Positions 3,274 to 26,114 of a stretch of DNA of 64,000 nucleotides are shown here, piece by piece. Origin of the DNA: an uncultured Lachnospiraceae bacterium (GTDB taxonomy: Bacteria; Bacillota; Clostridia; Lachnospirales; Lachnospiraceae); contig CANRFZ010000004.1 in the NCBI GenBank assembly GCA_947630025.1, positions 110,738 through 174,737 of the forward strand, given 5' to 3'. Each line of letters starts with the position of its first letter. Positions within the stretch are counted from its first letter, which is position 1. The notes beneath the pieces are model-generated. The model saw nothing but the letters and a program-made list of their open reading frames with translations. It was not told where the DNA came from and did no database searches. A program made the position numbers and the translations under genes.

Positions 3274-3307
3274 AATGTGCTTTGCCGCAGCACAGGATGA
3301 TAATCCG

Positions 3308-5482: not shown

Positions 5483-6417
5483 TACTGTATCCTTTCTGCC
5501 GCCTGTGGCAAACTGCTCTCCACCGTCCGACAACTTCTTAGCCTGTCTCCGATCCGTACCTTGCCGTCATAGGTATATTCCAGAACTTCCAGCATAGTGT
5601 CGCCGGTCTTGACCAAAAAGCCGTCGCCCGTTCTGCCTACGACCTGTCCGACAGTGTTCTTATAGACATGACTCCCGGGAACCATCCGTGCACGGTTGAT
5701 ATAGATCGGCCTGCCGTCGATCCACGATACGGCCTGCGGCCCCGGCGTGCATAACGCCCTGATAAAATTGAAAATTTCGCGGCTGGTATGATTCCAGTCA
5801 ATGATCTCGTCGCCCTCCTGCCGCGCGCCGCAGTAGATGCCGACAGGATCGATATCCTGCTGCCGGATGCGCTCCGCCTGACCGGTCTGAATCAACTTGA
5901 TAGCCCGATACAAAACATCTGCGCAGCCTGCATAGGCCCGCTCCAGCAACGTGGCGTAATTATCCTCATCCGTGATCGGATAGGTCTCCTGCAGGATAAT
6001 ATCTCCGGTGTCGATCCCCTCATCCACATAATGAACGGTGATGCCGAACTCCTTCTCGTCATTGATAAGCGCCCAGTTCAGGATGTTCCTGCCCCGATAG
6101 AACGGCAGCTTGCCCGCATGACAGTTAATCGTCTTGTATACAGGCAGTTCTATCATCTCTCTCTTAAAAATCTGATTGAACGACATGGAGACAAATAACT
6201 CCGCGTGATACCGCTCTATCCGTTCCCTAAATTCCTGTGAATTGATATTAGCGCTCAATTCCACGGGAATCCCATGTTCTTCGGCTTTTTGCAGGAGATA
6301 GGTGTCGCGCTTATCGTACCTGACTGTCATGAACACAATCTCAATCGAATCATCCGATATGATCTTCTCGAACGCCTGATGCGCCCACGGGCCGTCCGCA
6401 AAATATCCTATCCTCAT
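5482..6417 (-). CDS. Sugar formyltransferase (Fmt/ArnA-like)
   Basis: A 311-aa formyltransferase with complete catalytic signature: NCHAGKLPFYRG (Asn98, His100) and the DTGD motif at 136-139, followed by a C-terminal Fmt-like domain. The family transfers formyl from N10-formyl-THF to an amino group; in a sugar cluster the acceptor is likely a 4-amino-4-deoxy or related amino sugar nucleotide (inference). Its ATG (6417) overlaps the 3' end of the FemAB-like gene by 4 bases. A run of eight C lies 42 bases upstream of this start, so slippage there would change where upstream translation stops relative to this start and could alter coupled expression. Its stop overlaps the start of neuB. Confidence 0.87.
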   Translation of the reverse strand: MRIGYFADGPWAHQAFEKIISDDSIEIVFMTVRYDKRDTYLLQKAEEHGIPVELSANINSQEFRERIERYHAELFVSMSFNQIFKREMIELPVYKTINCHAGKLPFYRGRNILNWALINDEKEFGITVHYVDEGIDTGDIILQETYPITDEDNYATLLERAYAGCADVLYRAIKLIQTGQAERIRQQDIDPVGIYCGARQEGDEIIDWNHTSREIFNFIRALCTPGPQAVSWIDGRPIYINRARMVPGSHVYKNTVGQVVGRTGDGFLVKTGDTMLEVLEYTYDGKVRIGDRLRSCRTVESSLPQAAERIQ

Positions 6418-7562
6418 GCGGCAAGCCCTCCGCGCCTATTTACAGGGAAGGGATTACGCCCCCCCCTGATCGAATCTGTTACACAAGTCTGCATATCAGC
6501 GTTTTCCTCCATGGCCCTGTATGTAATCATAAACGGCACATCAGCACAAAAGGAACTGTCATGTTTCTTTCTCAACCCTACCAGTTCATCAAATGCTGAC
6601 TGGTCAAAAATCGTCCTCCCAATATAAAAATCTGCAGCGCCCTGCGGACAAAAATTCCGTTTAAATCTATATAACGTATCTTCCGCTTCCGTACCGCCGC
6701 CCAGATGAAGCGCACGCATACCGTTTTGATTGGCCCAGCGAGCCGCTGATCGTAATAGTAAATTGAAAGGCGCATATTTCCGGCCCTCGATTGTCGTGCC
6801 GCCGAGGTGATAGTGCATATACCTATCGCTATACAAAAAAACAGCCGCGCTGATAATCTCCCCATCCTTTCGTGCATAAAAGAAAATAAGATGATCATTC
6901 ATATTTTTAATCAAATATGTGAAATACTCTTTTTTAAAATAATAGTACGCATCCGCCTGATGGTGCTGCATTGTCATATAGTATATCCGCAGAAATTCAT
7001 CCAGTTTCTCACCTCTGTCATGCAGCACCTCCACGGCATTCTTTTCAGCTTTCCGCACCCGATTCCTGCATTCCGACGTCATGTTTTGATCAATAGCTTC
7101 ATAGTCCGATGTATCTATCGCTACAGTTTTCTTGAGAGATTTCATTTCACATATATCCGTAAACAATCTGTGATTATGCAGCAGCGGATGAAATCTGAAA
7201 AATTGCGATACAATATGATGCCCGGCACAATAAGAAAATAATTCCGCTCTGAATCGCTCCAATACGTCATGGGTTATCTGCCCTTCCGTCAACGGCCCGC
7301 CATATCCATAGGGTGATGTCCAGTCATAATAACGACCGGTCTCCAATAGATGCCGAAATGCCCGGCTTTCCGCAATATCGTTTTGAAACATCACATACGC
7401 GATTCTGGCACCCTGCTCCTCATAATAGATAAGCAGCGGCTGCCCATCTCCGTGCAGCATCAGCGCCGCATTATATTCGTATGTAAAATAAATATCCCAT
7501 TGTTCAAAACTCTGTATCAGACAATTCCACCGTTCCCGGTTTGCCGTGTCGATTATTTCCAT
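6414..7562 (-). CDS. FemAB/GNAT-type acyl- or aminoacyltransferase
   Basis: A 382-aa protein resembling the FemAB-like GNAT fold (Acetyltransf_6 type): an N-terminal half with the GYGGP motif near residue 94 and a C-terminal GNAT half containing LHLGGGTEAEDTLYRFKRNF near residues 290-310. Members transfer aminoacyl or acyl groups to amines in peptidoglycan or glycans, so modification of an amino sugar is a reasonable role here (inference). It overlaps both neighbours. A run of eight C (6459-6466) encodes Arg-Gly-Gly about 15 residues before the end. In one slipped frame the protein ends at once after the run, in the other a few codons later, so slippage changes only the tail and the distance to the next start. 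Confidence 0.75.
   Translation of the reverse strand: MEIIDTANRERWNCLIQSFEQWDIYFTYEYNAALMLHGDGQPLLIYYEEQGARIAYVMFQNDIAESRAFRHLLETGRYYDWTSPYGYGGPLTEGQITHDVLERFRAELFSYCAGHHIVSQFFRFHPLLHNHRLFTDICEMKSLKKTVAIDTSDYEAIDQNMTSECRNRVRKAEKNAVEVLHDRGEKLDEFLRIYYMTMQHHQADAYYYFKKEYFTYLIKNMNDHLIFFYARKDGEIISAAVFLYSDRYMHYHLGGTTIEGRKYAPFNLLLRSAARWANQNGMRALHLGGGTEAEDTLYRFKRNFCPQGAADFYIGRTIFDQSAFDELVGLRKKHDSSFCADVPFMITYRAMEENADMQTCVTDSIRGGRNPFPVNRRGGLAA
6459..6466. repeat. Poly-C tract (C8) at 3' end of FemAB-like gene
   Basis: Eight C, read as AGG GGG GGG near the C-terminus. G9 gives a stop within two codons (GCG TAA). G7 gives a stop seven codons after the run. In this copy the reading ends at 6414, overlapping the next start. 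Confidence 0.75.
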
Positions 7563-8353
7563 ACATATTCCTCACAGATCAATACATATCTTTTGCCGTT
7601 TTTCTTCAACTCGATTGGTACGGATTTCCCTTTTTCGCTCTCTGCCTCATCTTCTGTTACGATTTCCCTGACTCTGTATTTCATCTGATCCAACAGAATA
7701 ACCGCACCGCCAAAATCTTTTACTGCCCTGATTTTCCGTTTTATCACATCATACGTGTCATTTTCGATGTCTATCGTATAATCGGCCTCCTGCACCTTAG
7801 GCCTGTACGTTCCCCGCTCCTTTCGCACTGTTTCTGCTATGCAGCCTTCTTGTATAAAATCTACATATCTATCCAGCACTTTCTCCAAATGTGCATCCAG
7901 CTTATGATCCAGCTCTATATAATCGCTGCTTCCTACCTCTATCTCCTCCTCACAGATGACATTTCCCTCGTCAATCCCAGTGATCTGATACAATGTCAGC
8001 CATGTCTTCTCATCGCCAAGCAGAATCGTCCATCGGAGCGGGTGCGCGCCTCGATTGTTTTCTATACTGCCTGGATGAATATTATAGAAATCGTGTCTGG
8101 CAATAATATCTCGCGGTATGATATATCCGAACTTGTAAATCAGAACTTTGTCCGTTCGAATATGATCTTCTATTCGACAAATATCCGCCTTCTCATTCAT
8201 TTCATACAAATCAATTTTTTGATCGGCAATCATCATCTTCGTTTCAGGAGAGATAACGCCCGGCTTTGTGATAATGCCGACCAGTGTCAGCCGTTCATCC
8301 GCAAGCAGGCATTGTATCATTTTCTCGGAATAACCTATATAAGTCAGGCGCAT
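7553..8353 (-). CDS. Formyltransferase-like protein
   Basis: A 266-aa protein with formyltransferase N-domain: YNIHPGSIENNRG (Asn91, His93) and DEGNVI replacing the usual DTGD. The C-terminal part is short and basic. The third formyltransferase-like protein of this operon, it is the most divergent in the acidic loop. The likely role is N-formylation of an amino sugar nucleotide, or a related one-carbon or acyl transfer (inference from family and context). ATG 8353 lies 3 bases after the stop of the ThDP enzyme gene, and the 3' end overlaps the FemAB-like gene by 10 bases, so expression is probably coupled. Confidence 0.78.
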   Translation of the reverse strand: MRLTYIGYSEKMIQCLLADERLTLVGIITKPGVISPETKMMIADQKIDLYEMNEKADICRIEDHIRTDKVLIYKFGYIIPRDIIARHDFYNIHPGSIENNRGAHPLRWTILLGDEKTWLTLYQITGIDEGNVICEEEIEVGSSDYIELDHKLDAHLEKVLDRYVDFIQEGCIAETVRKERGTYRPKVQEADYTIDIENDTYDVIKRKIRAVKDFGGAVILLDQMKYRVREIVTEDEAESEKGKSVPIELKKNGKRYVLICEEYVWK

Positions 8354-8356
8354 GAT

Positions 8357-10144
8357 TCATCTATCCTTAATCATCAATTCTTTGTATTCGTCTTCCGGCA
8401 GGAACGGATACATATCCTGCAGCGCAGGCGTGAGCATTTTGCCGTTCTCGTCCAGTCGGGACATCACGCGCGGCATAACAGGATCGTCAAAGCGCTGTTC
8501 TATCTCCAGCAGCACCCGTTCTTTACTTCCGGTCAGCCATTTCACGCTTTCCTCCACTTCCGCATTGGAAGCGCATTTCCTGTACGCAAAGCCGAAAGTA
8601 TCCGCAACTTTGGCAAAATCCGGAAAGCTGACGCCCGTATCCGGCGTGCAGCCGATGTAAGCGCCTGCGAAGAAATTCTTGCTCGTCTGCCGGATGGCTC
8701 CGTAGCCCTCGTTGGAAAAGATCACGAGGCTGACCGGCAGGTCGTTCTGCACGATCGTCTGCAGCTCCTGCAGATTCATCATCACACTGCCGTCACCGGT
8801 GATACAGTACACTTTCCGGCCGGAAGCCACCGCCGCCCCGATTGCCGCCGGCAGATCATATCCCATGGAGCCGCAGGTATAGTTGGTCAGTGTCCGCTGC
8901 CCCGCATACTGCACGCCGACCTGCAGCTTCGCCGTGTTCGCGGTATTGTTGCCCAGCGCCAGTATGCTGTCATGTTCCTCGTACTGCTGAAATATTTTCC
9001 AGAAATAATAGGAACATACCCGCTCGTCCATCGCGATCTGCTCTGCCGCCTCAAACGGCGTAAACCTGTTTTTCAGCATATTACAGTAGTCCAGCCAAAC
9101 TTGCGGAGCTTCCACCGCGCAGTCCATGTGCAGCAATACATTCATCACTTCCCGCACATCGCCGTGCAGGAATCTGCTGATTCGCAGCCCCGGTTTTCTG
9201 CTCTCGGCCTCGTCCGCATCTACCATAATGATCTTGGCATCCGGCGCGAACGCCTCCTGATTGAATCCTGTCTGGCGGAATCCCAGACTGTTTCCCAATG
9301 TCAGAATCACATCCGCATTCTGCAGGATAAAATTGCCTGTACGCGGCCCAACATTACCGGAAGTTCCATAATATAACGGATGCTCGGTATACAGATTGTC
9401 CGCAACCCATGAACCGCCTATCACAGGAACGCCCATGCGCTCTGCCAGCTCTGCAAACAGGCTCCGGCTCCCGCTGCTGATAATGCCCGATCCGCCCAGA
9501 ATACACGGCCTGTCCGCCTGCCGCAGCAGATCGATGATACCCTGCGCATCCGCCATACTGACTGCCGGCACGCTGCTGGGCGTCTCCTCCGCCGCATACA
9601 GTTCCCCTGCCTCTACTCTGGCGTTCTGGATGTCCTGCGGCACATCGATCCATACCGGCCCTCTCCGGCCATCCAGCGCTATCCGGATAGCCTTAATCAG
9701 TTCTCTCCTGACCGCCAGAGGATCGGTCAGCATCACGGCATATTTGGTCATATTTTTTACCGCAGGAATGATCTCAAATTCCTGAATGCCCCTGTACCTG
9801 AGCGGCAGACCGGATTTGGGAACGGAGATTTCATACCGCACCTGCCCCGACAATACGATCATCGGCAGACTGTCCTGCCATGCGCCCATCACACCGGTCA
9901 GGGTATTCGTAGCGCCCGGGCCGCTGGTGACGCAGACCGCCGCCATTCTGCCGCTATATCTGGCGTAGGCTTCCGCTGCCATGGCACACGCCTGTTCGTG
10001 GTGGTTGAAATACTTGTGTATTCCGTCACAGACCAGCAGTGCGTTGTCTAGGTGCATCGCGCCGCCGCCCACCACGGCGAAACAGTCGGTAATCCCATAT
10101 TCCACCAGTGTATCCATGATGATGTCTGCTACTCTCTTACCCAT
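8357..10144 (-). CDS. Thiamine diphosphate-dependent enzyme, acetolactate synthase-like
   Basis: A 595-aa three-domain ThDP enzyme of the acetohydroxyacid synthase superfamily. The cofactor-activating Glu is in HHEQACAMAAEAY (Glu50), and the ThDP/Mg motif GDGSVMMN...SNEGYG lies in the C-terminal domain. The start MGKRVADIIM and the GGGAMHLD loop near residues 26-33 are nearly repeated in the right-operon paralogue (14925-16691). A biosynthetic IlvB is unlikely: there is no small subunit gene and the surroundings are purely sugar genes. By analogy with YerE-type enzymes it may add a two-carbon unit from pyruvate to a keto-sugar nucleotide, but this is inference. One such paralogue sits in each of the two operons that the invertible promoter can reach. 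Confidence 0.85.
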   Translation of the reverse strand: MGKRVADIIMDTLVEYGITDCFAVVGGGAMHLDNALLVCDGIHKYFNHHEQACAMAAEAYARYSGRMAAVCVTSGPGATNTLTGVMGAWQDSLPMIVLSGQVRYEISVPKSGLPLRYRGIQEFEIIPAVKNMTKYAVMLTDPLAVRRELIKAIRIALDGRRGPVWIDVPQDIQNARVEAGELYAAEETPSSVPAVSMADAQGIIDLLRQADRPCILGGSGIISSGSRSLFAELAERMGVPVIGGSWVADNLYTEHPLYYGTSGNVGPRTGNFILQNADVILTLGNSLGFRQTGFNQEAFAPDAKIIMVDADEAESRKPGLRISRFLHGDVREVMNVLLHMDCAVEAPQVWLDYCNMLKNRFTPFEAAEQIAMDERVCSYYFWKIFQQYEEHDSILALGNNTANTAKLQVGVQYAGQRTLTNYTCGSMGYDLPAAIGAAVASGRKVYCITGDGSVMMNLQELQTIVQNDLPVSLVIFSNEGYGAIRQTSKNFFAGAYIGCTPDTGVSFPDFAKVADTFGFAYRKCASNAEVEESVKWLTGSKERVLLEIEQRFDDPVMPRVMSRLDENGKMLTPALQDMYPFLPEDEYKELMIKDR

Positions 10145-10153
10145 TGTTCCGCC

Positions 10154-11206
10154 CTATACGTTTAATTTCTTTCTCATAGACTCCAGTTCTTCCAGCTGGC
10201 CCATATCCATATAGGCGTCTTCCTCTACCACGTACACGCCTATTTTGGCTCCCCGCCGTCTGGAATCGTCAACCAGCTCCGGAAAAGATATATTTTCCCC
10301 ATGCGGCATCCGCCGCAGAAGGTCATGATCGACGACATACATACCGGTATTGATCAGATAGTCCATCTCCGGCTTTTCCCGCATGGCTTCATACTGGCCG
10401 CCGCCGTCGCACACCACCACGCCGTAAGGCACTTTCTGGCGATATTTAGCGGCTACCATTGTGATATAGTTTTTTTCTCTCTGATGATAGTTGTATATTT
10501 CAGCGTAGTCGGCATCTATGATAATGTCGCAGTTGATCAGAAAAAAATCCTGCTTTATTCTGTCTTCCAGCAGATACAGGCCGCCGCCTGTCCCTAACGG
10601 CTGCGCTTCTTCGATATAGGTGATCTGATAATTCTTGTGCACACTGTTGTAGTACGCCTGAATCATATCCTTTTTATGATTCACGATAAAATAAAACTGT
10701 CCGCAGCCAAACTCCACAAAATTATTGACGATACGCTCCGAGATCGGGATATCGCCGACCGGAATGAGCGCTTTCGGCAGAATCTTCGTATACGGATATA
10801 ACCTTGTTCCTCTGCCTCCGGCCATCATCACCACAGGGCAAGCCAGCGTACACGCCCGGCGCACACGGCGGCCGTTTCTAAACACCACCTCGACGACCTC
10901 CTGATTGTAATTGACGATCGGCAGGGAATAAATCTCTGTGCGTTCAAACACCGCGTCGATTTTCTCTTTCTCATAGCGGGTTAGGTATTGAGGGGTACTG
11001 CTGGCAATTTTTCGCACCGGCAGGCTCATGTCTCCCTCCTGCAGAACGAAACGCCGCACGTCGCCATCCGAAACCGACGCGGTCAGCTTGCCGTTATTGA
11101 CGACATAGATCACCTTGCATCTGACACGCTCCAACTGTGCCACGGCGCTTCTGATATTACTGTTCTCATCAATCAGAATATCTTCCAACTGCATAGACTC
11201 ACCCAT
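10154..11206 (-). CDS. ptmE: CBS-domain sugar-phosphate nucleotidyltransferase (PtmE-like)
   Basis: A 350-aa protein with two CBS motifs in the first ~115 residues and a nucleotidyltransferase domain beginning VVMMAGGRGTRLYPYT (signature at 129-140) with LPKALIPVGD. This architecture is that of PtmE in the Campylobacter legionaminic-acid pathway, which makes GDP-glucosamine from glucosamine-1-phosphate. The CBS pair may sense adenosyl ligands. The nucleotide used here cannot be assigned from sequence. The ATG at 11206 overlaps the stop of the epimerase gene. An ATG at 11194 behind GGGTGAG is an equally possible start. With neuC and neuB in the same operon a legionaminate-type GDP-linked route is plausible, though no 4,6-dehydratase is seen in the left operon. 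Confidence 0.82.
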   Translation of the reverse strand: MGESMQLEDILIDENSNIRSAVAQLERVRCKVIYVVNNGKLTASVSDGDVRRFVLQEGDMSLPVRKIASSTPQYLTRYEKEKIDAVFERTEIYSLPIVNYNQEVVEVVFRNGRRVRRACTLACPVVMMAGGRGTRLYPYTKILPKALIPVGDIPISERIVNNFVEFGCGQFYFIVNHKKDMIQAYYNSVHKNYQITYIEEAQPLGTGGGLYLLEDRIKQDFFLINCDIIIDADYAEIYNYHQREKNYITMVAAKYRQKVPYGVVVCDGGGQYEAMREKPEMDYLINTGMYVVDHDLLRRMPHGENISFPELVDDSRRRGAKIGVYVVEEDAYMDMGQLEELESMRKKLNV

Positions 11207-12095
11207 AAATCAACGACATCACATCTATCTCATCTTCATGCCGCCTGTACCAGTCGTACAACGCTCCCACCGAATCCCTGATATCCGTAAAACGCATCTG
11301 CGGAAGCTCCTTCAGAATCCTGTCATTATTGGCCGTATACTCGTTGGCATAACCTTCCTGACACACGAGGATCGGCTGCGGTGTTCCAGCCGCTTCATTG
11401 ACGAGTTCCGCCAGTGTGTATAAATCAATCCTCTCGCCGCGCACGGCATTGTAAGTATGGTGCTGCGGCTTGTCCAACTGCAGGAACAACTCCAGCATAC
11501 GGCAGAAATCATCTATCCACAGATAGTCGAAATAACAGTTCCGGCGCATGGATAGCGGCAAACCCTTAATCGATTTGCAGCACAGATTGGAAATATACTT
11601 GCTTGGCCAGTGCTCATATTTGCCGAAGATGCCGAACAGACGCAGATTATATATGTTCTCGCTGCACTCTATCATCTGATTCACGGTGTATTTCATCAGT
11701 CCGTACGGATCGACCGGAACCGTGTGCCGCACGATATCGTCCTCCGTCACGGATGCGATCGGAAAACGCTTGTCATACTCCGCGCCCGAACCCGTATAAA
11801 TCATTCTGCCGTACAGGTCGGAATGCACTCGAAAATTGTGAAAAATCCGCAAATTATATTCTAACGACTTCGTACCGTCCTTGTTCTTGTCGATGGCATC
11901 GCCGTATACCGCGAAGTGCAGGACGACATCATAGCATCCCTGCCGCAGACAGGCGGCTACGCTGCGCTCGTCGATGCAGTCCAGTTCTCTGCTCGCAGGC
12001 GCATACACATCATATCCCCGATTCACAAGATATTCTTTTACATTCCGCCCCACGAAGCCGGAGCCGCCCGTAATCAGTATCTTCACACTTTTCAA
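11199..12095 (-). CDS. NAD-dependent epimerase/dehydratase (first gene of left operon)
   Basis: A 298-aa extended short-chain dehydrogenase: nucleotide-binding GGSGFVGRN near the N-terminus and the YxxxK pair in PYGLMKYTVNQ. It acts on a nucleotide sugar, as epimerase, reductase or dehydratase. A paralogue with the same signature order is encoded at 27201-28073. No ATG is suitably placed: the likely start is TTG at 12095 behind AGAAAG, or GTG at 12086; the 27201-28073 paralogue also appears to use TTG. It is the first gene of the left operon and lies only 34 bases from the left recombination site, so after inversion the mobile promoter would transcribe it with a leader of about 70 bases. In the present orientation no promoter for it was found. 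Confidence 0.85.
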   Translation of the reverse strand: MKSVKILITGGSGFVGRNVKEYLVNRGYDVYAPASRELDCIDERSVAACLRQGCYDVVLHFAVYGDAIDKNKDGTKSLEYNLRIFHNFRVHSDLYGRMIYTGSGAEYDKRFPIASVTEDDIVRHTVPVDPYGLMKYTVNQMIECSENIYNLRLFGIFGKYEHWPSKYISNLCCKSIKGLPLSMRRNCYFDYLWIDDFCRMLELFLQLDKPQHHTYNAVRGERIDLYTLAELVNEAAGTPQPILVCQEGYANEYTANNDRILKELPQMRFTDIRDSVGALYDWYRRHEDEIDVMSLIYG

Positions 12096-12128
12096 ATCAG
12101 CTTTCTGTCAACGAAATTGTCGGTTTGA

Positions 12129-12160
12129 TGAGAAAACATTCTGTGCAAAATGTTTTCTTC
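12129..12160 (+). repeat. Left inverted recombination site
   Basis: Arms TGAGAAAACATT and AATGTTTTCTTC flank the 8-base spacer CTGTGCAA. The arms are mutual inverted repeats at 10 of 12 positions. The right half plus spacer is repeated exactly, inverted, at 12932-12952. Confidence 0.85.
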
Positions 12161-12216
12161 GCGCGCAAAAGGGCGGATAATGGCAGTACGACTGTAACTT
12201 ACAAAGGAGGAAGCAT

Positions 12217-12798
12217 ATGAGTACAACACAGCCACTGAAAAACATTGACGAGATTGAAGAACTGAAACGGTATTTCCTGCGGAGGGGAGAGATAAGGAAT
12301 TATGTGCTGGTTACGCTGGGGATCAACACGGCGCTGCGGATCAGCGACCTGCTGCAGGTGGTCTGGAAGGATGTGTATGATTTCAGGTTTGAACGTGTCA
12401 GGCAGCACATGACTATTGTCGAACACAAAACCGGCAAAACGGCAAATGTTTATCTTAATCACCACTGCGCGGAAGCATTGGAGATGCTGAAAACGCATCT
12501 GAAACGAGAGATCCAAGACTGTGAATATGTATTTCGGAGCCGCGTCGGTGCAAACAAGCCCATCAGCAGAAACCGCGCCTATGTGATTATCAAGAATGCC
12601 TGCCTTGAACTGGGGTACGAAGGAACGCTGAGCTGCCATTCCCTGCGCAAAACGTTTGGCTATCACGCATGGAAACAAGGGACATCCCCGGCGGTTCTCA
12701 TGTCAATCTATAACCACTCCTCCATGAAAATCACCATGCGCTACCTCTCCATTGAGCAGGACGACAAGGATGATGTCTACAAGACTGTCATGTTGTGA
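12217..12798 (+). CDS. Tyrosine recombinase (invertase, FimB/FimE-size)
   Basis: A 193-aa site-specific recombinase made of the catalytic domain almost alone. The catalytic set can be seen: Arg41 in TALRISDLL, Lys71/Lys74 in HKTGK, His141 and Arg144 in HSLRKTFGYHAW, His167 in YNHSS and nucleophile Tyr176 in TMRYLSI. The N-terminal core-binding domain of phage integrases is missing, as in the ~200-aa FimB/FimE inverters. A strong AAAGGAGG precedes ATG 12217. It lies entirely inside the segment flanked by inverted sites, so it would flip with it, and it is the obvious candidate to recombine those sites. No clear promoter of its own was found; a GATAAT near 12176 lacks a good -35. Confidence 0.92.
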   Translation: MSTTQPLKNIDEIEELKRYFLRRGEIRNYVLVTLGINTALRISDLLQVVWKDVYDFRFERVRQHMTIVEHKTGKTANVYLNHHCAEALEMLKTHLKREIQDCEYVFRSRVGANKPISRNRAYVIIKNACLELGYEGTLSCHSLRKTFGYHAWKQGTSPAVLMSIYNHSSMKITMRYLSIEQDDKDDVYKTVML

Positions 12799-12856
12799 CG
12801 CGCAGCACCGGCGAGAGCTGCAGAATTTCCGTTGCGGAAAGGCTGATCGAGGCAGG

Positions 12857-12886
12857 CTGATCCGGGCAGTGATCAGGGCAGTTTTT
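12857..12886 (+). terminator. Possible weak terminator after the recombinase
   Basis: CTGATC and GATCAG form a 6-bp stem with an 8-base loop, followed by GGCAG and five T. It lies between the recombinase and the outward promoter and may insulate them. The stem is short and its distance to the T run is not ideal. Confidence 0.35.
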
Positions 12887-12893
12887 AAAATTC

Positions 12894-12922
12894 TTGCAAT
12901 ACCCCTGACTTTGTACTATAAT
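12894..12922 (+). promoter_or_regulatory. Outward sigma-A promoter inside the invertible segment
   Basis: TTGCAA (12894-12899), a 17-base spacer and a perfect TATAAT (12917-12922). Predicted transcription starts near 12929, just inside the right recombination site, about 90 bases before the NeuB-like ATG at 13018. In this orientation it drives the right operon; inverted, it would drive the left. The same TTGCAA-17-TATAAT arrangement occurs at 60479-60507. Confidence 0.8.
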
Positions 12923-12933
12923 AAAATAGCTGC

Positions 12934-12965
12934 GAAGAAAACATTTTGCACAAAAAGTTATCTTC
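12934..12965 (-). repeat. Right inverted recombination site
   Basis: Arms GAAGAAAACATT and AAAGTTATCTTC flank the 8-base spacer TTGCACAA. Reversed, the spacer reads TTGTGCAA, one base different from the left spacer CTGTGCAA. The inner half is the exact inverse of the left site; the outer half is more diverged. Confidence 0.85.
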
Positions 12966-13017
12966 ACGCGGCGGCACAGGCCGGCGGGGACGCGCGCCGG
13001 ACGGAGGGAAAGGGACC

Positions 13018-13842
13018 ATGCACACATTCATCACTGCCGAGATCGGCATCAACCACAACGGGGACTTGGGACTGGCCAAAAAACTGATCGACGCGGCAGC
13101 CGTGGCGGGCTGCGACGCGGTGAAGTTCCAGAAGCGCACCGTTGACACCGTATATACGAAGGAATACCTTGACAGCCCGCGGAAAAGCCCGTGGGGAGAG
13201 ACCCAGCGCGCCCAGAAGGAAGGGCTGGAGTTCGGGAAAGAGGAGTATGACGAGATCGACCGCTACTGCCGGGAAAAGGGGATCGAGTGGTATGCGTCGG
13301 CATGGGACGCCGGCTCCCAGAAATTCCTGCGGCAGTATGGCTGCAAATATAATAAGGTGGCCTCGGCCATGCTGACCAACGAGGAGCTGCTGGAAGAAAT
13401 CGCCGGGGAGGGGAAGTACACGTTCATCGCCACGGGGATGAGCACCTTCGGGGAGATCGACCGCGCGGTGGAGGTCTTTAAAAAGCACGGCTGCCCTTTC
13501 GAGCTGATGCACTGCAACAGCACCTATCCCATGCCCATGGAGGAGGCGAACCTGAAGCTGATCGGCGTGCTGGCACAGAGGCACGGCTGCAGGGCGGGCT
13601 ACAGCGGGCATGAGGCCGGGACGCTGGTGAGCACCTGCGCGGTGGCGGCGGGGGCTTCCTCCATAGAGCGCCACATCACGCTGGACAGGACGATGTACGG
13701 CTCGGACCAGAAGGCCTCCATAGAGCCCTATGAACTGTGCGCGCTGGTAAAGGCCATACGGGACGTGGAAAAAGTGATGGGCACGGGGGAGAAAGCCTTA
13801 AGCGCGGCGGAGGAAGAAGTCAGGAAAAAACTGAGGGGATAG
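13018..13842 (+). CDS. NeuB-family synthase lacking the SAF domain
   Basis: A 274-aa PEP-condensing synthase of the NeuB family: FITAEIGINHNGDLGLAKKL at the start, then DAVKFQKR, ASAWD, STGMS-like ATGMST, MHCNSTYPMP and SDQKASIEP. It ends right after the barrel (about residue 270), whereas NeuB proteins continue with a SAF domain to ~340 residues; the left-operon NeuB has it. ATG 13018 was preferred because GGAGGGAAAGGG precedes it; upstream open frame runs into the recombination site. It is the first gene of the right operon and is followed by a phosphatase-isomerase fusion, an order recalling the Kdo pathway (isomerase, aldolase, phosphatase). Its sugar acceptor is unknown. Confidence 0.85.
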   Translation: MHTFITAEIGINHNGDLGLAKKLIDAAAVAGCDAVKFQKRTVDTVYTKEYLDSPRKSPWGETQRAQKEGLEFGKEEYDEIDRYCREKGIEWYASAWDAGSQKFLRQYGCKYNKVASAMLTNEELLEEIAGEGKYTFIATGMSTFGEIDRAVEVFKKHGCPFELMHCNSTYPMPMEEANLKLIGVLAQRHGCRAGYSGHEAGTLVSTCAVAAGASSIERHITLDRTMYGSDQKASIEPYELCALVKAIRDVEKVMGTGEKALSAAEEEVRKKLRG

Positions 13843-13861
13843 GAAGGGATAAGCCTGGACG

Positions 13862-14932
13862 ATGATAGAACTGATCGTATTGGACATAGACGGCGTGGTC
13901 ACGGACGGCTCCGTCATCATCGACTCTGACGGGAAGGAACAGAAGCAGGTCAACTTAAAGGACATCGACGCCATATTTGAGCTGCACCGCAGGGGATACA
14001 AGCTGGCGGCGGTCACCGGGGAGGAGACGGAGATCGTCGGCTACTTCGAGAAGCGCTTCCCGTGGGAATATTTCTACCGGGGGAGCAGGACGAAGAAGGA
14101 GACCATGAGGCAGATCGAGGAAGGCAGCGGCATAAGCCGGGAGCACATCTGCTATGTGGGGGACGGCAAGTACGACGTGGAGCCCCTGTCCTATGCAGGG
14201 CTCGGGGTGTGCCCCGCCAATGCCATAGACAGGGCGAAGGCCGCCGCGGACATCATCCTGCAGAACGACGGCGGGAAGGGGTGCCTCTGGGAGCTGGTCT
14301 CGTTATTGGAGAAGTACAATGACCCGGCCTGCGCCCACAGCTACTTTTTGGGGAGGCTGGAGGAGCACACAGGCATCTTTAAGAAGCTGGCGTCCGACCG
14401 GGAGCTGGCGGACACGGTCATGGCGGCTGCGGAGAGGCTGGCAGGCATCCTGGAGGCCGGAGGGCGGTTGTACCTGTTCGGCAACGGCGGGAGCGCCGCG
14501 GATGCGCAGCACATCGCGACGGAGTTCATCAGCCGTTTCTATAAGGAGAGGCCGGGGCTCAACGCGGAGGCGCTGACGGTGAACACGTCCACGCTGACGG
14601 CGGTGGGGAATGACTACGGCTACGAGAGGGTGTTTGCGAGGCAGCTGGAGGCGAAGGCCGAGGCCGGGGACATGGCCGTGGGGATCAGCACCAGCGGGCG
14701 GTCCGTGAACGTGCTGGAGGGGCTGCGGTATGCGCGCCGCAACGGGCTGGTTACGGTCCTCCTGACGGGAGGCTATGAGAACCCGGAGACTGCGGACACA
14801 GCGGAGTATGTGGTCAGGGTGCCGTCGTTAATCACGCCGAGGATACAGGAGGCGCATATCTTCATCGGCCATGTGATGGCGGAGTATGTGGAGCACAGGT
14901 TGTTTGGAGATAAAAGCAGGAAAGATGATTAA
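13862..14932 (+). CDS. Fusion: KdsC-like HAD phosphatase + GmhA-like SIS isomerase
   Basis: A 356-aa two-domain protein. Residues 1-150 are a KdsC-type HAD phosphatase: LDIDGVVTDG with Asp8/Asp10, VTGEE, and a GDGKYD motif near 100-105. Residues ~160-350 are a GmhA-type sugar isomerase: LFGNGGSAADAQHIATEF near 205-222, VNTST, GISTSGRS and the C-terminal EAHIFIGH. KdsC releases phosphate from an ulosonic acid-8-phosphate and GmhA isomerises sedoheptulose-7-phosphate to a heptose-7-phosphate. Joining them in one chain beside a NeuB-like synthase suggests production of an unusual ulosonic or heptose-derived acid (inference). The gene is very GC-rich compared with the genes after 16.7 kb. Its stop overlaps the next start by 8 bases. 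Confidence 0.88.
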   Translation: MIELIVLDIDGVVTDGSVIIDSDGKEQKQVNLKDIDAIFELHRRGYKLAAVTGEETEIVGYFEKRFPWEYFYRGSRTKKETMRQIEEGSGISREHICYVGDGKYDVEPLSYAGLGVCPANAIDRAKAAADIILQNDGGKGCLWELVSLLEKYNDPACAHSYFLGRLEEHTGIFKKLASDRELADTVMAAAERLAGILEAGGRLYLFGNGGSAADAQHIATEFISRFYKERPGLNAEALTVNTSTLTAVGNDYGYERVFARQLEAKAEAGDMAVGISTSGRSVNVLEGLRYARRNGLVTVLLTGGYENPETADTAEYVVRVPSLITPRIQEAHIFIGHVMAEYVEHRLFGDKSRKDD

Positions 14933-16691
14933 ACTATCGGATTATGTATTTGCATTCTTAAAGGCCAAAGGAATCCGGCACGCATTCATGCTGCCGGGCG
15001 GCGGCGCCATGCACCTTGACGACTCCCTGGGGCGTTCCGGGATCGAATATACCTGCTTCCTGCATGAGCAGGCCGCGGCGATAGCTGCCGAGGCATATGC
15101 CCAGCACACCAACACGCCGGGGCTGGTGCTCGTGACTTCCGGGCCGGGAGCGACCAATGCCATTACGGGCGTGGCGGCAGGCTGGATCGATTCCACGCCC
15201 ATGATCATCATTTCCGGGCAGTCGAAGCGGAGCGATCTCGTGGGGGACAAGGGCGTGCGCCAGACCGGTTCGCAGGAGGTGCAGATCGTGCCCATGGTGA
15301 AGCCCGTCACGAAATACGCGGTGCAGGTTCTGGAGCCCGAAAAGATCCGTTACCATCTGGAACGCGCCTGGCATGAGGCAGGCACCGGGCGGCCCGGCCC
15401 CGTCTGGCTGGACATCCCGCTGGACGTGCAGGCCGTGGTGCTGGATGAGGATGACCTTACCGGCTATGAGCCGGACAGGCGGGAAAGCTGCGATATTTCC
15501 GCTGCAGTCAGGACAACGGCGGAACTGCTGGAGAAATCGGAGAAGCCCCTGTTCCTAGCCGGGAACGGAATCAAGCTGGCGGGTGCGGAAGACCTTCTGT
15601 ACCGCCTGTTAGGGAAACTGCAGATCCCCGTGGAGACCACATGGAAGGCCATAGACCTGTTCGGCGAGGATGACCCCCTGTATGCCGGGCATCCGGGCAT
15701 CATGGGCGACAGGGGTGCCAACCTGATCCTGCAGGAGGCGGACCTGCTCCTGTCCGTGGGCTGCCGCCTGGACACCAGCGTCACGGCATTCAACGACAGG
15801 AATTTCGGCAGGTGCGCGAAGAAAGTCATCGTGGACATCGATCCGCATGAAATCGCCAGAATGGACATGGATATGGAGGCATACGCCGCGTGCGACGCGG
15901 GAGATTTCCTGCAGGCTCTGCTGGAGTTTACGGAAACGGACGGCACTGCCCAGAATTCAGGAGAGGCCGGCGGGAAACGCAGGGCATGGCTCTCCCGCTG
16001 CCATGAGCTGCGGCAGAAATACCCCGTCGTCACGCAGGCGCACAGGGAGGCGGAGGGATATGTAAGCGCCTACTACTTCATCGGGGAACTGTGCAGGCTG
16101 CTGCGGGAAGACGACGTGGTCGTGCCGGAGAGCTCGGGCGGCGCGGGCGAGATCACCTATCAGGCGTTCCGGCTGAAGAAAGGCCAGAAGATGAAGAACG
16201 CGGCGGGGCTCGGCTCGATGGGGTTCGGGCTGCCCTATGCGATCGGTTCCTGTATTGCGAATGGCAGGCGGCGGACCATCCTGATCAACGGCGACGGTGC
16301 CTTCCAGCTGAACATCCAGGAACTGGAGACCCTGCACAGGCTGCGCCTCCCCGTCAAGATGTTTATCTGGAACAACGGCGGCTATGCCAGCATCCGCGCC
16401 ATGCAGCGGAACAACTTTGAAGGGCGCTACGTGGCGAGCGATGCGGGGAGCGGCCTGACGATGCCTGATATTTCCAAGGTGGCGCAGGCGTACGGCTTTA
16501 AGAGCTGCCGGATACAGGACAATGCTGAACTGGACAGGGTGCTGCCGGAGATCATGAAGGACGACGAGCCGGTCCTGTGCGAGCTGATGGTGCTGCCGGA
16601 GGAGACGGTGTCGCCCCGGGTAAAGGCTGTCGTTGGTGAGGACGGCAGGATGACGTCCGGGCCGCTGGAAAAAATGTGGCCGTATCTATAG
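14925..16691 (+). CDS. Thiamine diphosphate-dependent enzyme, acetolactate synthase-like (right operon)
   Basis: A 588-aa ThDP enzyme paralogous to 8357-10144. Catalytic Glu48 lies in FLHEQAAAIAAEAYAQ, the PGGGAMHLDD loop near 24-33 matches the paralogue, and the cofactor motif GDGAFQLNIQEL...WNNGGYAS lies in the last domain. ATG 14925 was chosen because AGGAAAG precedes it and it overlaps the isomerase stop. Like its partner it probably forms a carbon-carbon bond from pyruvate, or another 2-keto acid, onto a sugar (inference). One such enzyme in each of two alternatively promoted operons suggests parallel pathways yielding different branched sugars. Composition is GC-rich, like 13018-14932. 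Confidence 0.85.
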   Translation: MIKLSDYVFAFLKAKGIRHAFMLPGGGAMHLDDSLGRSGIEYTCFLHEQAAAIAAEAYAQHTNTPGLVLVTSGPGATNAITGVAAGWIDSTPMIIISGQSKRSDLVGDKGVRQTGSQEVQIVPMVKPVTKYAVQVLEPEKIRYHLERAWHEAGTGRPGPVWLDIPLDVQAVVLDEDDLTGYEPDRRESCDISAAVRTTAELLEKSEKPLFLAGNGIKLAGAEDLLYRLLGKLQIPVETTWKAIDLFGEDDPLYAGHPGIMGDRGANLILQEADLLLSVGCRLDTSVTAFNDRNFGRCAKKVIVDIDPHEIARMDMDMEAYAACDAGDFLQALLEFTETDGTAQNSGEAGGKRRAWLSRCHELRQKYPVVTQAHREAEGYVSAYYFIGELCRLLREDDVVVPESSGGAGEITYQAFRLKKGQKMKNAAGLGSMGFGLPYAIGSCIANGRRRTILINGDGAFQLNIQELETLHRLRLPVKMFIWNNGGYASIRAMQRNNFEGRYVASDAGSGLTMPDISKVAQAYGFKSCRIQDNAELDRVLPEIMKDDEPVLCELMVLPEETVSPRVKAVVGEDGRMTSGPLEKMWPYL

Positions 16692-16734
16692 ATACAAGTA
16701 ATGTAATGAAAACTATCAAGAAGGATGATAGATA

Positions 16735-17919
16735 ATGATCAGATATGAGGCTGCAATCAAAAAGAGAATTGCCAATCTAAAGGATAGAAAGCTTTTACTA
16801 TGCGGAGACGATGCTCTCACAGATTATATTGCAAAAGATTTCATGGCAATGGGTAAGGACATAAAATGCAGAGGCGGCATTAAAGGCGGTGTTTTCTGCA
16901 TTCAGGATGGCAATAGTCATGAGATGAAACTTGAGGATGTAAATCCTAAAAATTATTTTGTACTGGTAGCAGTATTCGAAAGACACAAGGAATATGTGGA
17001 TTGTCTCGAAAAAATGGGATTTACTTATGGCAATGATTATGAAGTGATGGGGATAGGCGGGTATTGTACGCCGATTACGCATATCAGTCCTTTATTGACA
17101 TACTGCAGAAATCCGGAATATGCCCATATGGGAAATGGTAAATATACCATTTTAATTTATGGCGGGAGTACCAGCGACGTTGGGCGTGGAGGAATAAAAG
17201 GCTGGCCTGAATATTTTCAGGAGGAATTAAACCTGCAAGGGGGGGGGTATTTTGAGGTGTATAATGGCGCAGTTTCAGGATATGGGGCTGCACAAGAGTT
17301 TTTAAAGCTTTGCAGAGATATTACGGTGTTTCATCCAAACTTGGTTATTTCTTTTTCGGGAGTTAATGATATTGGCGGAGGTGTACGGGCAGGAAATTAT
17401 CCATTTTTACATAAATATCAGAAAAAAATGTGGAAGCAAATTTTAGAAAAAGGGAATTGTATTCCCGACTCTATGGATATGAGAAATATGCATGAAATAT
17501 CATGGGGAATTGAGAGAAATGATAATCCCGGTGACGCGGCAATCTGGCTGGATTACGAGCGGATGATGTATGCGGTATGTATGGAATTTCAAGCATTTTT
17601 TCTTGGGATCGTCGAACCTATGAGTTATTCTCATGTGTTGGACAAAACTCTGGAACAAGACTTAGTGGAATTACTGCAGGCAAAAGGTATAGACAAAACA
17701 TATTTTAAAAAACAAAAAAAATTTGTTATGGAAGTGCACGATCATATATGTCAAAAACATCTGGATTATATGATTGATTTGTCGGAATATCTGTCAGGTG
17801 AAACGGGTGTTTTTTCAGACTATATTCATTATACAGAAAAAGGCAATCAACTGATAGGAAATTATATGGCCGGTTTGGTTATCAAGAAAATAAAAGAAAA
17901 TGGAAATATCATTAAATAG
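16735..17919 (+). CDS. SGNH/GDSL-type hydrolase with N-terminal Rossmann-like domain
   Basis: A 394-aa protein. The N-terminal ~110 residues resemble the Rossmann-like domain shared by several methyltransferases of this locus, with a worn glycine motif (LLLCGDDALTD). The SGNH part follows: YGGSTSD with Ser145, a block-II-like NGAVSGYG near 177, GVND (209-212) and the C-terminal SDYIHYTEKG with Asp362/His365. SGNH enzymes are esterases or O-acetyl transferases/esterases; trimming or transferring ester groups on the glycan is plausible (inference). No signal peptide is visible. A G9 run (17239-17247) encodes Gly169-171 inside the SGNH domain and is in frame here. Composition drops sharply in GC from this gene on. 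Confidence 0.75.
   Translation: MIRYEAAIKKRIANLKDRKLLLCGDDALTDYIAKDFMAMGKDIKCRGGIKGGVFCIQDGNSHEMKLEDVNPKNYFVLVAVFERHKEYVDCLEKMGFTYGNDYEVMGIGGYCTPITHISPLLTYCRNPEYAHMGNGKYTILIYGGSTSDVGRGGIKGWPEYFQEELNLQGGGYFEVYNGAVSGYGAAQEFLKLCRDITVFHPNLVISFSGVNDIGGGVRAGNYPFLHKYQKKMWKQILEKGNCIPDSMDMRNMHEISWGIERNDNPGDAAIWLDYERMMYAVCMEFQAFFLGIVEPMSYSHVLDKTLEQDLVELLQAKGIDKTYFKKQKKFVMEVHDHICQKHLDYMIDLSEYLSGETGVFSDYIHYTEKGNQLIGNYMAGLVIKKIKENGNIIK
17239..17247. repeat. Poly-G tract (G9), SGNH gene ON
   Basis: Nine G encode Gly-Gly-Gly between the first and second SGNH blocks. Gain or loss of one base would truncate the protein before the GVND block. Confidence 0.88.
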
Positions 17920-18586
17920 CGATGAATTAAAAACATATATAGGAAATCAACTGGATTCTTTCTTCCCTGACAAATACAGATTCAAGGGAGAAGATGTTGA
18001 CAGAGCTTTTTGCCTGGCTTTAGAACGTCTGGAATATTGCTATAAGTTTATTGTTGTTCCGGCCTATAACCATAATGGACAAACTTTTTTCTCTCATTTA
18101 CATGGTGACCAGTATAGCCAGTTCCTGTATTATCTGTCAAACAGTCTTTGGACAATAAGCGAAAATAAGCCAATCTGCGATAAGATCATTCAATTGAATA
18201 GATTACTGAGCGGTATGTTCTATTCTTACAAGGCGGGATTGCCGGATATTTTCTATTGGTCTCATCCGATAGGTACAGTCCTTGGAAATGCACCGTATGG
18301 TAATTTTTTCTCTTGTATGCAAAATTGTACTGTTGCCACACAAGTTGGAGATCACAGAAAAACATTTGGACAAGGACTTCATTTAGCCTCCGGAGCGCAG
18401 ATTTTGACAAAAGATGTTGAAATTGACGACAGAGTAGTTATTGGAGCAGGAACTACTATTCGTAATGCCAGTCATTTAATGTCAGATACTTTAGTAATAA
18501 ACAAAGGCGGAGTGACAGAGCAGATAAAAAGAACTAGGGAAGTGTATGATAAATTTATGTTGCCGCTTTGGAATGTGAAAATTTAA
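17900..18586 (+). CDS. Hexapeptide acetyltransferase, serine acetyltransferase-like
   Basis: A 228-aa protein with an N-terminal helical region and a left-handed beta-helix built of hexapeptide repeats near residues 130-215 (GDHRKTFGQGLHL, ILTKDVEIDDRVVIGAGTTI). It is a paralogue of the incomplete gene at 1-507. The ATG lies inside the 3' end of the SGNH gene (20-base overlap), so the two are translated together. Acetylation of an amino sugar or hydroxyl from acetyl-CoA is the likely reaction; cysteine synthesis is unlikely in this context (inference). Unlike the left-operon paralogue it has no poly-G run at the equivalent site, where it reads KGEDVDRAF. Confidence 0.82.
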   Translation: MEISLNSDELKTYIGNQLDSFFPDKYRFKGEDVDRAFCLALERLEYCYKFIVVPAYNHNGQTFFSHLHGDQYSQFLYYLSNSLWTISENKPICDKIIQLNRLLSGMFYSYKAGLPDIFYWSHPIGTVLGNAPYGNFFSCMQNCTVATQVGDHRKTFGQGLHLASGAQILTKDVEIDDRVVIGAGTTIRNASHLMSDTLVINKGGVTEQIKRTREVYDKFMLPLWNVKI

Positions 18587-18654
18587 TGAGAGGCTTTTTC
18601 GGAGAAAAAATCGAAATATAAGTTATGGCAAAATAATAGGAGAACTATCTTACA

Positions 18655-19707
18655 ATGAAACCATTAAAAGTAATTATTTACGGAACCAAAGTGCTGGGAC
18701 AGGAAATATATCGACAAATAGAGTGTTATAACAGAATAGTCCGCTCAAAATGCCACTTGGGGGGGGGTATAGAAGTTCTGGCATTTACGGAAAGCATATA
18801 TAAAGGAGGGTATATAGAACAAATACCTATACTTCCTTTGGAACAATGCGCGCAGCTGCCGTACGATTATATTATCGTAGCTAATGCACATTATGAGGAG
18901 ATCAAAAAGAATGTGATCGCCAGTGGTCTTTTGGATGTCAGAAAAATAGTAAGACACTTTGAATGGTCTCCTGAGAAAAACGGACTTAACCTGTCACAAT
19001 TAAACACGCTATATTATTATCATTGCGCTTTACCCGGAGAAGATAATGAAGAACTTGCACTGCTTTATCAAAAATTTGATGATCAGCATTATTTTACAGA
19101 TATCGAAAACAGACGTCGCTTTGTCGAAAATAAGAACGAATTAGAAAGATGGCGTAATACGGAAATCCTCTATGACACGGAGGAAAATCTAAACTATGTA
19201 TTTGTGGAAGGAAAACGCTTATATTATCCAAAAGACTGGAGTCATGCAAAGATCACAGAATATCATGCGCTCAATATGTATACGTGCATGAGTAAATCGT
19301 CGGCACACTGTTATTTGTCCGACAGTTTTGATGTAAATGAAAATGATATCGTTGCCGATATCGGAGCGGCAGAGGGTTTATTCTCCTTATATATTGTAGA
19401 TCGTGTCAAGAAAATCTATCTTTTTGAAGTTGATGAAACTTGGCTGGCGCCTTTATACGCAACCTTCAAACCGTACCGCGCCAAAGTTGTCATTGAGAAT
19501 AAATTTATAACCAACATAGACCAGTGGGAATTTGCAACTTGCGACAAGTATTTTCGGGATAAAGAAGTCAATCTGGTGAAAATGGACATCGAAGGCGAAG
19601 AACAAAAGGCACTTCTTGGGTGTAGAGAACTCCTGAAACGTAAGAACATAAGATGGCTTATTACCACTTATCACAGGAGCTTGGTGTGGGATACAAACTA
19701 TACCTGA
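18655..19707 (+). CDS. FkbM-type methyltransferase with N-terminal Rossmann-like domain; damaged 3' end
   Basis: A 350-aa protein. The N-terminal domain begins VIIYGTKVLG. The FkbM-type SAM-binding motif is ADIGAAEGLFSLY near residues 233-245, and the VKMDIEGEEQKALLG signature is near 305. The frame stops after ...TTYHRSLVWDTNYT. Another frame immediately beyond encodes QELGVGYKLYLRHYWDCNGTDTVLFAM to 19756, which matches the ends of the FkbM proteins at 23719 and 26115. About 13 codons plus a frame are missing between TTYH and ELG, so a small out-of-frame deletion seems to have removed the tail. A G9 run at 18759-18767 (residues 35-38) is in frame. FkbM enzymes O-methylate sugars; activity here is doubtful. 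Confidence 0.75.
   Translation: MKPLKVIIYGTKVLGQEIYRQIECYNRIVRSKCHLGGGIEVLAFTESIYKGGYIEQIPILPLEQCAQLPYDYIIVANAHYEEIKKNVIASGLLDVRKIVRHFEWSPEKNGLNLSQLNTLYYYHCALPGEDNEELALLYQKFDDQHYFTDIENRRRFVENKNELERWRNTEILYDTEENLNYVFVEGKRLYYPKDWSHAKITEYHALNMYTCMSKSSAHCYLSDSFDVNENDIVADIGAAEGLFSLYIVDRVKKIYLFEVDETWLAPLYATFKPYRAKVVIENKFITNIDQWEFATCDKYFRDKEVNLVKMDIEGEEQKALLGCRELLKRKNIRWLITTYHRSLVWDTNYT
18759..18767. repeat. Poly-G tract (G9) in fkbM-like gene, ON frame
   Basis: Nine G encode part of Leu-Gly-Gly-Gly at residues 35-38 of the N-terminal domain. The downstream frame is open in this copy. Confidence 0.88.
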
Positions 19708-19781
19708 GACATTACTGGGACTGCAACGGCACAGATACGGTTTTGTTTGCGATGTAATCGGCGGATAAGGAGCTTTCCGAA

Positions 19782-22758: not shown

Positions 22759-22777
22759 TAAAGGAGGATTCATTATA

Positions 22778-23680: not shown

Positions 23681-23718
23681 AAAACCGGCAGCCAAAAATG
23701 GGAGGAATAAAAGTTCGC

Positions 23719-24885: not shown

Positions 24886-24909
24886 AAGATACAGGAGGAT
24901 ATCACAACG

Positions 24910-26061: not shown

Positions 26062-26114
26062 GAAACAGGTATAAGTCCATTAGGTGCAGACGCAGCCCGG
26101 AAAGAGAGGTAAAA

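Follow-up and report, generated by a model that had tools for sequence, protein, structure and literature searches.

Invertible promoters are known in bacteria, in some cases with the recombinase gene inside the inverted segment, as exemplified by the Hin system of Salmonella. In the Hin segment, a promoter at the far end reads out across the recombination site and drives one operon in one orientation. In the fim switch of E. coli, a promoter is inverted by FimB and FimE, small tyrosine recombinases that consist of the catalytic domain only and lie outside their 314-bp switch. Recombinases are described as lying mostly beside their switches and occasionally within them, with Hin named as an example of the latter (PMC5903667); FimB and FimE are named in PMC6083910 and PMC11868660, and on/off promoters are presented as the best characterised invertible kind in PMC7241687. 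The targets of the RecV switches of C. difficile (cwpV, flgB and others) are described as surface and motility functions (PMC5903667, PMC7241687), and the effects of the cwpV and flagella switches are suggested to be post-transcriptional (PMC7241687). In Bacteroides fragilis, invertible promoters precede the capsular polysaccharide operons (PMC5903667, PMC7241687), and one master serine recombinase, Mpi, acts on many scattered promoters.

The locus described here lies in a 64,000-nt stretch of DNA (hereafter, the window) from an uncultured Lachnospiraceae bacterium (GCA_947630025.1, contig CANRFZ010000004.1, positions 110,738-174,737; the assembly consists of 30 contigs and is 82% complete). 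As in Hin, the recombinase gene is inside the putative invertible segment; however, Hin is a serine recombinase that drives one operon, whereas the window encodes a tyrosine recombinase and has an operon on both sides of the segment. The fim switch, too, depends on small tyrosine recombinases with the catalytic domain only, but FimB and FimE are outside their switch, whereas the window recombinase is inside and scores far below the cut-offs for tyrosine-type DNA invertases. With the RecV switches, as described in PMC5903667 and PMC7241687, the window shares a clostridial tyrosine recombinase and inverted repeats, although RecV is one recombinase for many switches, whereas the window recombinase lies inside one. 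The B. fragilis promoters resemble the window in preceding polysaccharide operons and differ from it in depending on one master serine recombinase for many scattered promoters. Finally, the clostridial invertons of group 139 are linked to a family of tyrosine-type recombinases, invertase group 35; two examples of group 139 with known coordinates are approximately 255 bp long, and the invertase is described as nearby, in contrast to the segments of 740-833 bp with the recombinase inside that are found in the window and its closest relatives (PMC11892184).

We estimate a probability of roughly 0.8 that positions 12131-12963 of the window are a self-contained two-way switch, in which one promoter drives either the NeuB operon on the right or the epimerase operon on the left. 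What appears to be new, judging from the comparisons above, is that the predicted two-way switch contains its own tyrosine recombinase and separates two operons, both of which encode a NeuB-family synthase and a thiamine-pyrophosphate (TPP) enzyme. Among the listed titles and opening lines of abstracts of open-access papers, we found no description of a recombinase-bearing two-way switch or of an invertible csrA/flagellin cassette (see below) in Lachnospiraceae, although an earlier description is possible.

The predicted invertible segment (12131-12963, no strand assigned) comprises 833 bp including both sites and is bounded by an inverted repeat, in which 29 of the 32 bases match (12131-12162 and 12932-12963). 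A first-pass annotation of the window had pointed to a perfect 21-base match (12142-12162 and 12932-12952); this match is indeed present and forms the core of the longer repeat. By simple arithmetic, the chance of a perfect 21-base pair in a stretch of such size is about 4e-7. The left site (12131-12162, forward strand) consists of an outer arm, the spacer CTGTGCA and the inner arm AAATGTTTTCTTC, and can also be located from the inner-arm motif alone; the right site (12932-12963, reverse strand), with the spacer TTGTGCA, was recognised as its inverted copy by sequence match. A degenerate pattern derived from the sites, with up to three mismatches, had four matches in the window, all at the two sites, and none in 100 shuffles. 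To look for further sites on which the recombinase might act, the exact pattern AACATT-N8-AATGTT was searched on both strands of the same genome and was found at the left site only, which is a weak test because this pattern misses the right site of the window itself.

The same annotation had assigned to each site 12-base arms around an 8-base spacer. In this layout, 10 of the 12 arm bases pair within each site, and the 8-base spacers (CTGTGCAA and TTGTGCAA) agree at 7 of the 8 positions in inverted alignment, as had been counted. The six bases beside the inner arm, TGTGCA, are identical at both sites; the sites differ at 3 of the 32 bases, one of these differences being inside the 8-base spacer. 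Each site is nearly palindromic, and direct-repeat alignment of the two still yields 83% identity. Deletion between the sites was considered on account of this direct alignment and rejected: the spacers agree at 7 of 8 positions in inverted alignment compared to only 5 of 8 in direct alignment (6 of 6 and 4 of 6, respectively, for the core), so that inversion is favoured over deletion. The earlier expectation of inversion thus holds, with the near-palindromic character of the sites as a refinement.

Between the inverted sites, as proposed previously, lies the gene for a 193-aa tyrosine recombinase (12217-12798, forward strand), preceded by AGGAGG, the likely ribosome-binding site (12205-12210, forward strand). 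The protein consists of the catalytic domain only and matches PF00589 (Phage_integrase; E 5e-24), with no other Pfam family at E 0.001; with this sole Pfam match, the catalytic domain of serine recombinases of the Hin/Gin/Mpi type is absent. The recombinase also matches the PHROG 216 integrase. In an alignment of the window protein with six relatives, R41, K71, K74, H141, R144, H167 and Y176 are invariant, and all of these except the lysines align with their counterparts in XerA (5hxy); the catalytic lysine is either K71 or K74. Thus, both the PF00589 profile match and the R-K-H-R-H-Y residues of the tyrosine recombinase family are in place. The scores against the NCBIfam models of tyrosine-type DNA invertases (NF007370, 28.4 with a cut-off of 221; NF007371, 46.3 with a cut-off of 222) and of XerC and XerD (46.4 and 41.2 with cut-offs of 335 and 330, respectively) are far below the thresholds, which places the recombinase outside these subfamilies. 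A phage origin of the cassette was considered and rejected, given that a single-sequence query complemented with six peptide patterns detected no relative of the recombinase in viral contigs (eight stretches matched a pattern, none of them a relative). A protein cluster 97% identical to the recombinase (P0002) includes 11 member sequences. The longest contig of this cluster is only 835 bases, close to the 833 bases of the segment, and may come from assemblies breaking at the sites where both orientations coexist.

The closest relatives that we analysed are loci L034-L038, which together with the window make up clade A (six loci). Their recombinases are 65-68% identical to that of the window, and the source genomes are mostly labelled Lachnospiraceae, with one Clostridium and one Blautia. 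In all five, inverted repeats of 26-40 bases enclose a segment of 740-804 bases. Close relatives were found in 5 of the 77 genomes in a survey of the genus and in 3 of the 397 genomes in a sample of the family, the window's own genome being counted in both; the family sample added L115 and L116, and genus searches around these two returned the same matches again, with no further relatives. A protein search yielded at least 60 proteins at 60-72% identity among the best 120 of 5785 matches, some of which are those of L034-L038. Beyond clade A, L117 (58% recombinase identity) lacks a flanking repeat as well as any match to the glycan genes of the window; L118 (53%) has a perfect 25-base repeat, and its left gene reads toward the cassette.

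If the paired sites are recombined, their spacers are expected to change together. Of 84 recombinase copies, 47 entered the comparison, with the inner-arm motif located independently to the left and to the right; for the 37 excluded copies, the motif of one or both sides was either not found or truncated. Among the six clade A loci, five different sequences occur at the six bases next to the inner arm, and in every locus the two sites agree at these bases. The 7-base spacers in this clade show a mean agreement of 6.67 of 7, with 4 of the 6 pairs perfect, and 27 of 20,000 shuffled pairings are as good, where with six loci the shuffle cannot fall below about 28 in 20,000. In the wider clade B, 36 of 41 pairs are perfect (some of the 41 are near-copies of one another, and L073 contributes two), and the mean agreement is 6.76 compared to 3.19 for shuffled pairings, a mean that none of the 20,000 shuffles reached. 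The low agreement in one clade B locus (L081, 1 of 7) is probably due to the motif having matched in the wrong place. Thus, the spacers differ between loci and match within a locus, as site-specific recombination between paired sites demands. Mismatches in the outer arms are common across the loci of this recombinase family.

A single outward promoter in the segment had been claimed, and we predict one of the sigma-A type, TTGCAA-17-TATAAT (12894-12922, forward strand; 10 of 12 consensus positions), which reads rightwards, out across the right site. The region 11700-13400 contains three promoter-like sites, compared to 1.5 expected from shuffles (sd 1.1), so that the count means little alone. 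One other match in the segment, weak and leftward (12326-12299, 9 of 12), lies inside the recombinase gene. A promoter of the same form is found in all six clade A loci, where it aligns in the interval from the stop codon of the recombinase to the right site, with the exact hexamers TTGCAA and TATAAT in four of them and the variants TTGTAA-17-TATACT and TTGCAA-17-TATACT in L034 and L037, respectively. The promoter match of a single locus is weak evidence: among 500 shuffled stretches, 34 contained a match of at least 9 of 12 for the window and 146 to 232 did so for the five relatives, and a reverse-strand match also occurs in two of the six loci. The case for the promoter rests, instead, on its common position and sequence in loci with only 65-68% recombinase identity.

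Outside the segment, no outward promoter was predicted within 130 bp to the left of the cassette in any of the six clade A loci or within 110 bp to the right in five of the six. Specifically, in the window, no promoter-like site was found between either recombination site and its adjoining first gene, in line with the original suggestion that neither flanking operon has a promoter at its head. As for the recombinase itself, only 14-31 bases separate its start codon from the left site in all clade A loci but the window (54 bases, 12163-12216), and such short distances leave little space for an inner promoter. Inward promoter-like matches are present in some clade A flanks and are not consistent across the loci. 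Transcription of the recombinase may depend on the flanking DNA and hence on the orientation of the segment.

The two flanking operons, with extents deduced from gene spacing, are divergent and read away from the segment, as previously noted. The right operon (13018-27185, forward strand) is a series of co-directional, overlapping or closely spaced ORFs. Its first gene (13018-13842, forward strand; PF03102, E 4e-72) encodes a NeuB-family synthase and starts 54 bases outside the right site; among the genes that follow are a HAD/SIS fusion, a TPP enzyme, GDSL-like and radical SAM genes, weakly acetyltransferase-like and FkbM-like genes, and genes without a named family. The left operon (555-12095, reverse strand) starts with an NAD-dependent epimerase/dehydratase (11199-12095, reverse strand; PF01370, E 6e-23), 35 bases outside the left site, and includes an NTP transferase, a TPP enzyme, three formyltransferase-like genes, a GNAT/FemAB-like gene, a NeuB with a SAF domain, two UDP-GlcNAc 2-epimerase-like genes and a PIG-L deacetylase. 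The ORF at 3426-4478 was named via one L034 protein, which matches both this ORF (49%) and its neighbour at 2095-3273 (52%, PF02350). A NeuB-family synthase and a TPP enzyme are thus encoded separately on each side, and judging from the gene families, the products would be nonulosonate-type sugars. Beyond the right operon, a long, mostly leftward gene run occupies 28112-63989; glycosyltransferases, DegT aminotransferases, a YfhO-family membrane protein and an ABC transporter are among the 19 ORFs that were scanned outside the two operons.

In clade A, divergent first genes are present at both sites in five of the six loci, namely, the window, L034, L035, L036 and L038. In the remaining locus, L037, the left gene reads toward the cassette, and given the lack of a divergent left gene, this would be a one-way switch. 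The scanned flanking genes of L034, L035, L036 and L038 are mostly glycan genes, with a radical SAM gene first on the right in L038. Two of the operons recur in different surroundings. In the window and L037 (NeuB 80% identical), the NeuB operon is to the right of the cassette, the side that the promoter faces; in L036 (NeuB 67% identical to that of the window), it is to the left. Five genes of this L036 operon occur in the same order in L037, with unmatched genes interspersed. The left operon of the window is also on the left in L034, where five genes match at 52-74% identity; a direct comparison of the TPP enzymes gave 81%. Thus, one and the same operon has different partners in different species, and the cassette is turned in one species. 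Had the segment always been the same way round in relatives, the idea of inversion would have been undermined; this is not what we found, with the NeuB operon being on the opposite side in L036.

The cassette layout belongs to a wide family, mostly from Lachnospiraceae, that the first-pass annotation had not recognised and in which L039-L113 are mostly located at csrA/flagellin loci. An inverted repeat with a score of at least 15 that spans the recombinase within 600 bases was detected in 61 of 80 relatives, five of these 80 being from clade A, compared to 0 of 246 shifted control stretches, which leaves 19 relatives without such a repeat; at a score of 14, the counts were 62 of 80 and 3 of 246. 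In one of the 61 repeat-bearing loci, L055, the repeat is a pair of flagellin genes. Within 4 kb, csrA is present in 64 of 81 loci, flagellin in 63 and either of the two in 67; the five clade A relatives are counted among the 81 although both genes are absent there. The csrA gene is on the left of the recombinase in 54 loci, 8 of which have no repeat with a score of 15, and on the right in 10, with 1 such exception; in all of them, it reads away from the recombinase. Among named strains, csrA is on the right in Roseburia porci (L094) and on the left in Petralouisia muris (L077).

A quick tree, built from 82 recombinases, requires at least seven changes in the side of csrA, with six of the changes forced by well-supported branches, and recombinase pairs up to 87% identical have csrA on opposite sides. 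When the cassette of L072 is aligned with those of L098, L095 and L078, the matching csrA flanks are on opposite strands, so that the cassette is turned relative to its flank. Nevertheless, csrA sides are clustered on the tree (only 4 of 500 shuffles are as low), and given this clustering and the lopsided 54 to 10 distribution, some of the differences may be old rather than ongoing flips, and the flips visible between species do not make up the full record. The pattern TAAA-N14-16-CCGATA, taken as a sigma-28-like promoter, was searched for with at most one mismatch; it reads out downstream of the recombinase in 48 of 76 loci, whereas the reverse strand has it in 3 of 76 and shuffled sequences in 133 of 3800.

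Taken together, the window displays bounding repeats, a predicted outward promoter, a recombinase inside the segment and matching spacers, and orientation differs among the relatives. On the negative side are the relatives in which no repeat was found (L117, and 19 of the 80 at a score of 15) and L037 with its lack of a divergent left gene. In the two-way switch, the recombinase encoded inside the segment would act on both sites and invert the segment, such that after each inversion the single predicted promoter would face one operon or the other. In the present assembly, this promoter faces the right NeuB operon, and the left operon would be off; the outcome would be an either/or choice of the nonulosonate-type sugar made for the cell surface. 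We infer the action of the recombinase on the sites, the activity of the promoter and the lack of any other operon promoter from the sequence, and the current silence of the left operon and the choice of surface sugar are put forward on the same grounds. The original proposal that the segment chooses between two sugar operons is supported, in particular, by the divergent genes near both sites in five of the six clade A loci. The same pattern speaks against a one-way arrangement, in which only the right NeuB operon depends on inversion, in an ON/OFF fashion, and the left operon has a promoter of its own that the consensus scan missed. One-sided L037, a close relative, and the weak leftward sigma-70-like match inside the recombinase gene are compatible with such an arrangement, but this match lies on codons of a conserved stretch of the protein, the left site and the first left gene are separated by only 35 bases, and in none of the six loci was a promoter-like site found in the interval from the left site to the first gene beyond it; we consider this variant unlikely.

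Still less probable, in our assessment, is that a formerly invertible segment has become locked, with the recombinase and the sites decaying. Such decay would fit the three bases at which the sites differ, including one in the spacer, as well as the clustering of the csrA side on the tree of the wider family and the fact that the flipped state was not seen in the genome assembly of the window. However, the recombinase ORF is intact and keeps all catalytic residues, the six core spacer bases match, mismatches in the outer arms are common in the family anyway, and the 11 sequences of the 97% identity cluster suggest that the protein is kept. That the cassette is a small integrase-bearing mobile element, with ends that are attachment sites and with no regulatory role, seems highly improbable. 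Its recombinase does belong to the integrase superfamily (PF00589; PHROG 216 integrase), and the clade A cassettes do occur at varied glycan loci; yet the cassette sits between divergent operons without predicted promoters of their own, its outward promoter is conserved in place, the related clade keeps its csrA/flagellin neighbourhood (67 of 81 loci within 4 kb), unlike a free mover, and the single-sequence query found no relative in viral contigs.

If the two-way switch operates as proposed, one cassette with the recombinase, the sites and the promoter would choose between two sugar pathways, each with a NeuB-family synthase, and switching would yield a population of cells that differ in their surface chemistry, with two forms side by side. 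A broader reading, which we offer tentatively and rate at somewhat less than even odds, is that the cassette serves Lachnospiraceae as a portable either/or selector, which can be placed between any two glycan operons, with the partners exchanged over evolution, and that a sigma-28 version gates csrA-flagellin. Denoting the left operon of the window alpha and the NeuB operon beta, the partner of alpha is beta in the window and another operon, gamma, in L034; beta, in turn, has delta as its partner in L036 and no partner in L037. The genome of the window itself encodes a second such cassette (L114:10670-11414, contig C16), with perfect 25-base sites, a recombinase 48% identical to that of the window and a sigma-28-like promoter; it lies immediately upstream of csrA and flagellin genes, which were named from the sequence and from matches in relatives. 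If the portable selector is real, one genome would have two independent switches of the same design, one for surface sugars and the other for the flagellum.

In Roseburia and Eubacterium, csrA is described as part of the flgM-fliC locus (PMC3720852), in a text that contains neither the word recombinase nor integrase. The csrA/flagellin cassettes suggest that flagellin expression is phase variable in many motile Lachnospiraceae. The flagellins of such commensals are described as pro-inflammatory (PMC3720852). One contig in the family, CAJTHM010000002.1, carries three cassettes, two of locus L073 (5976-6731 and 8827-9580) and one of L071 (7951-8689), with flagellin genes between and around them.
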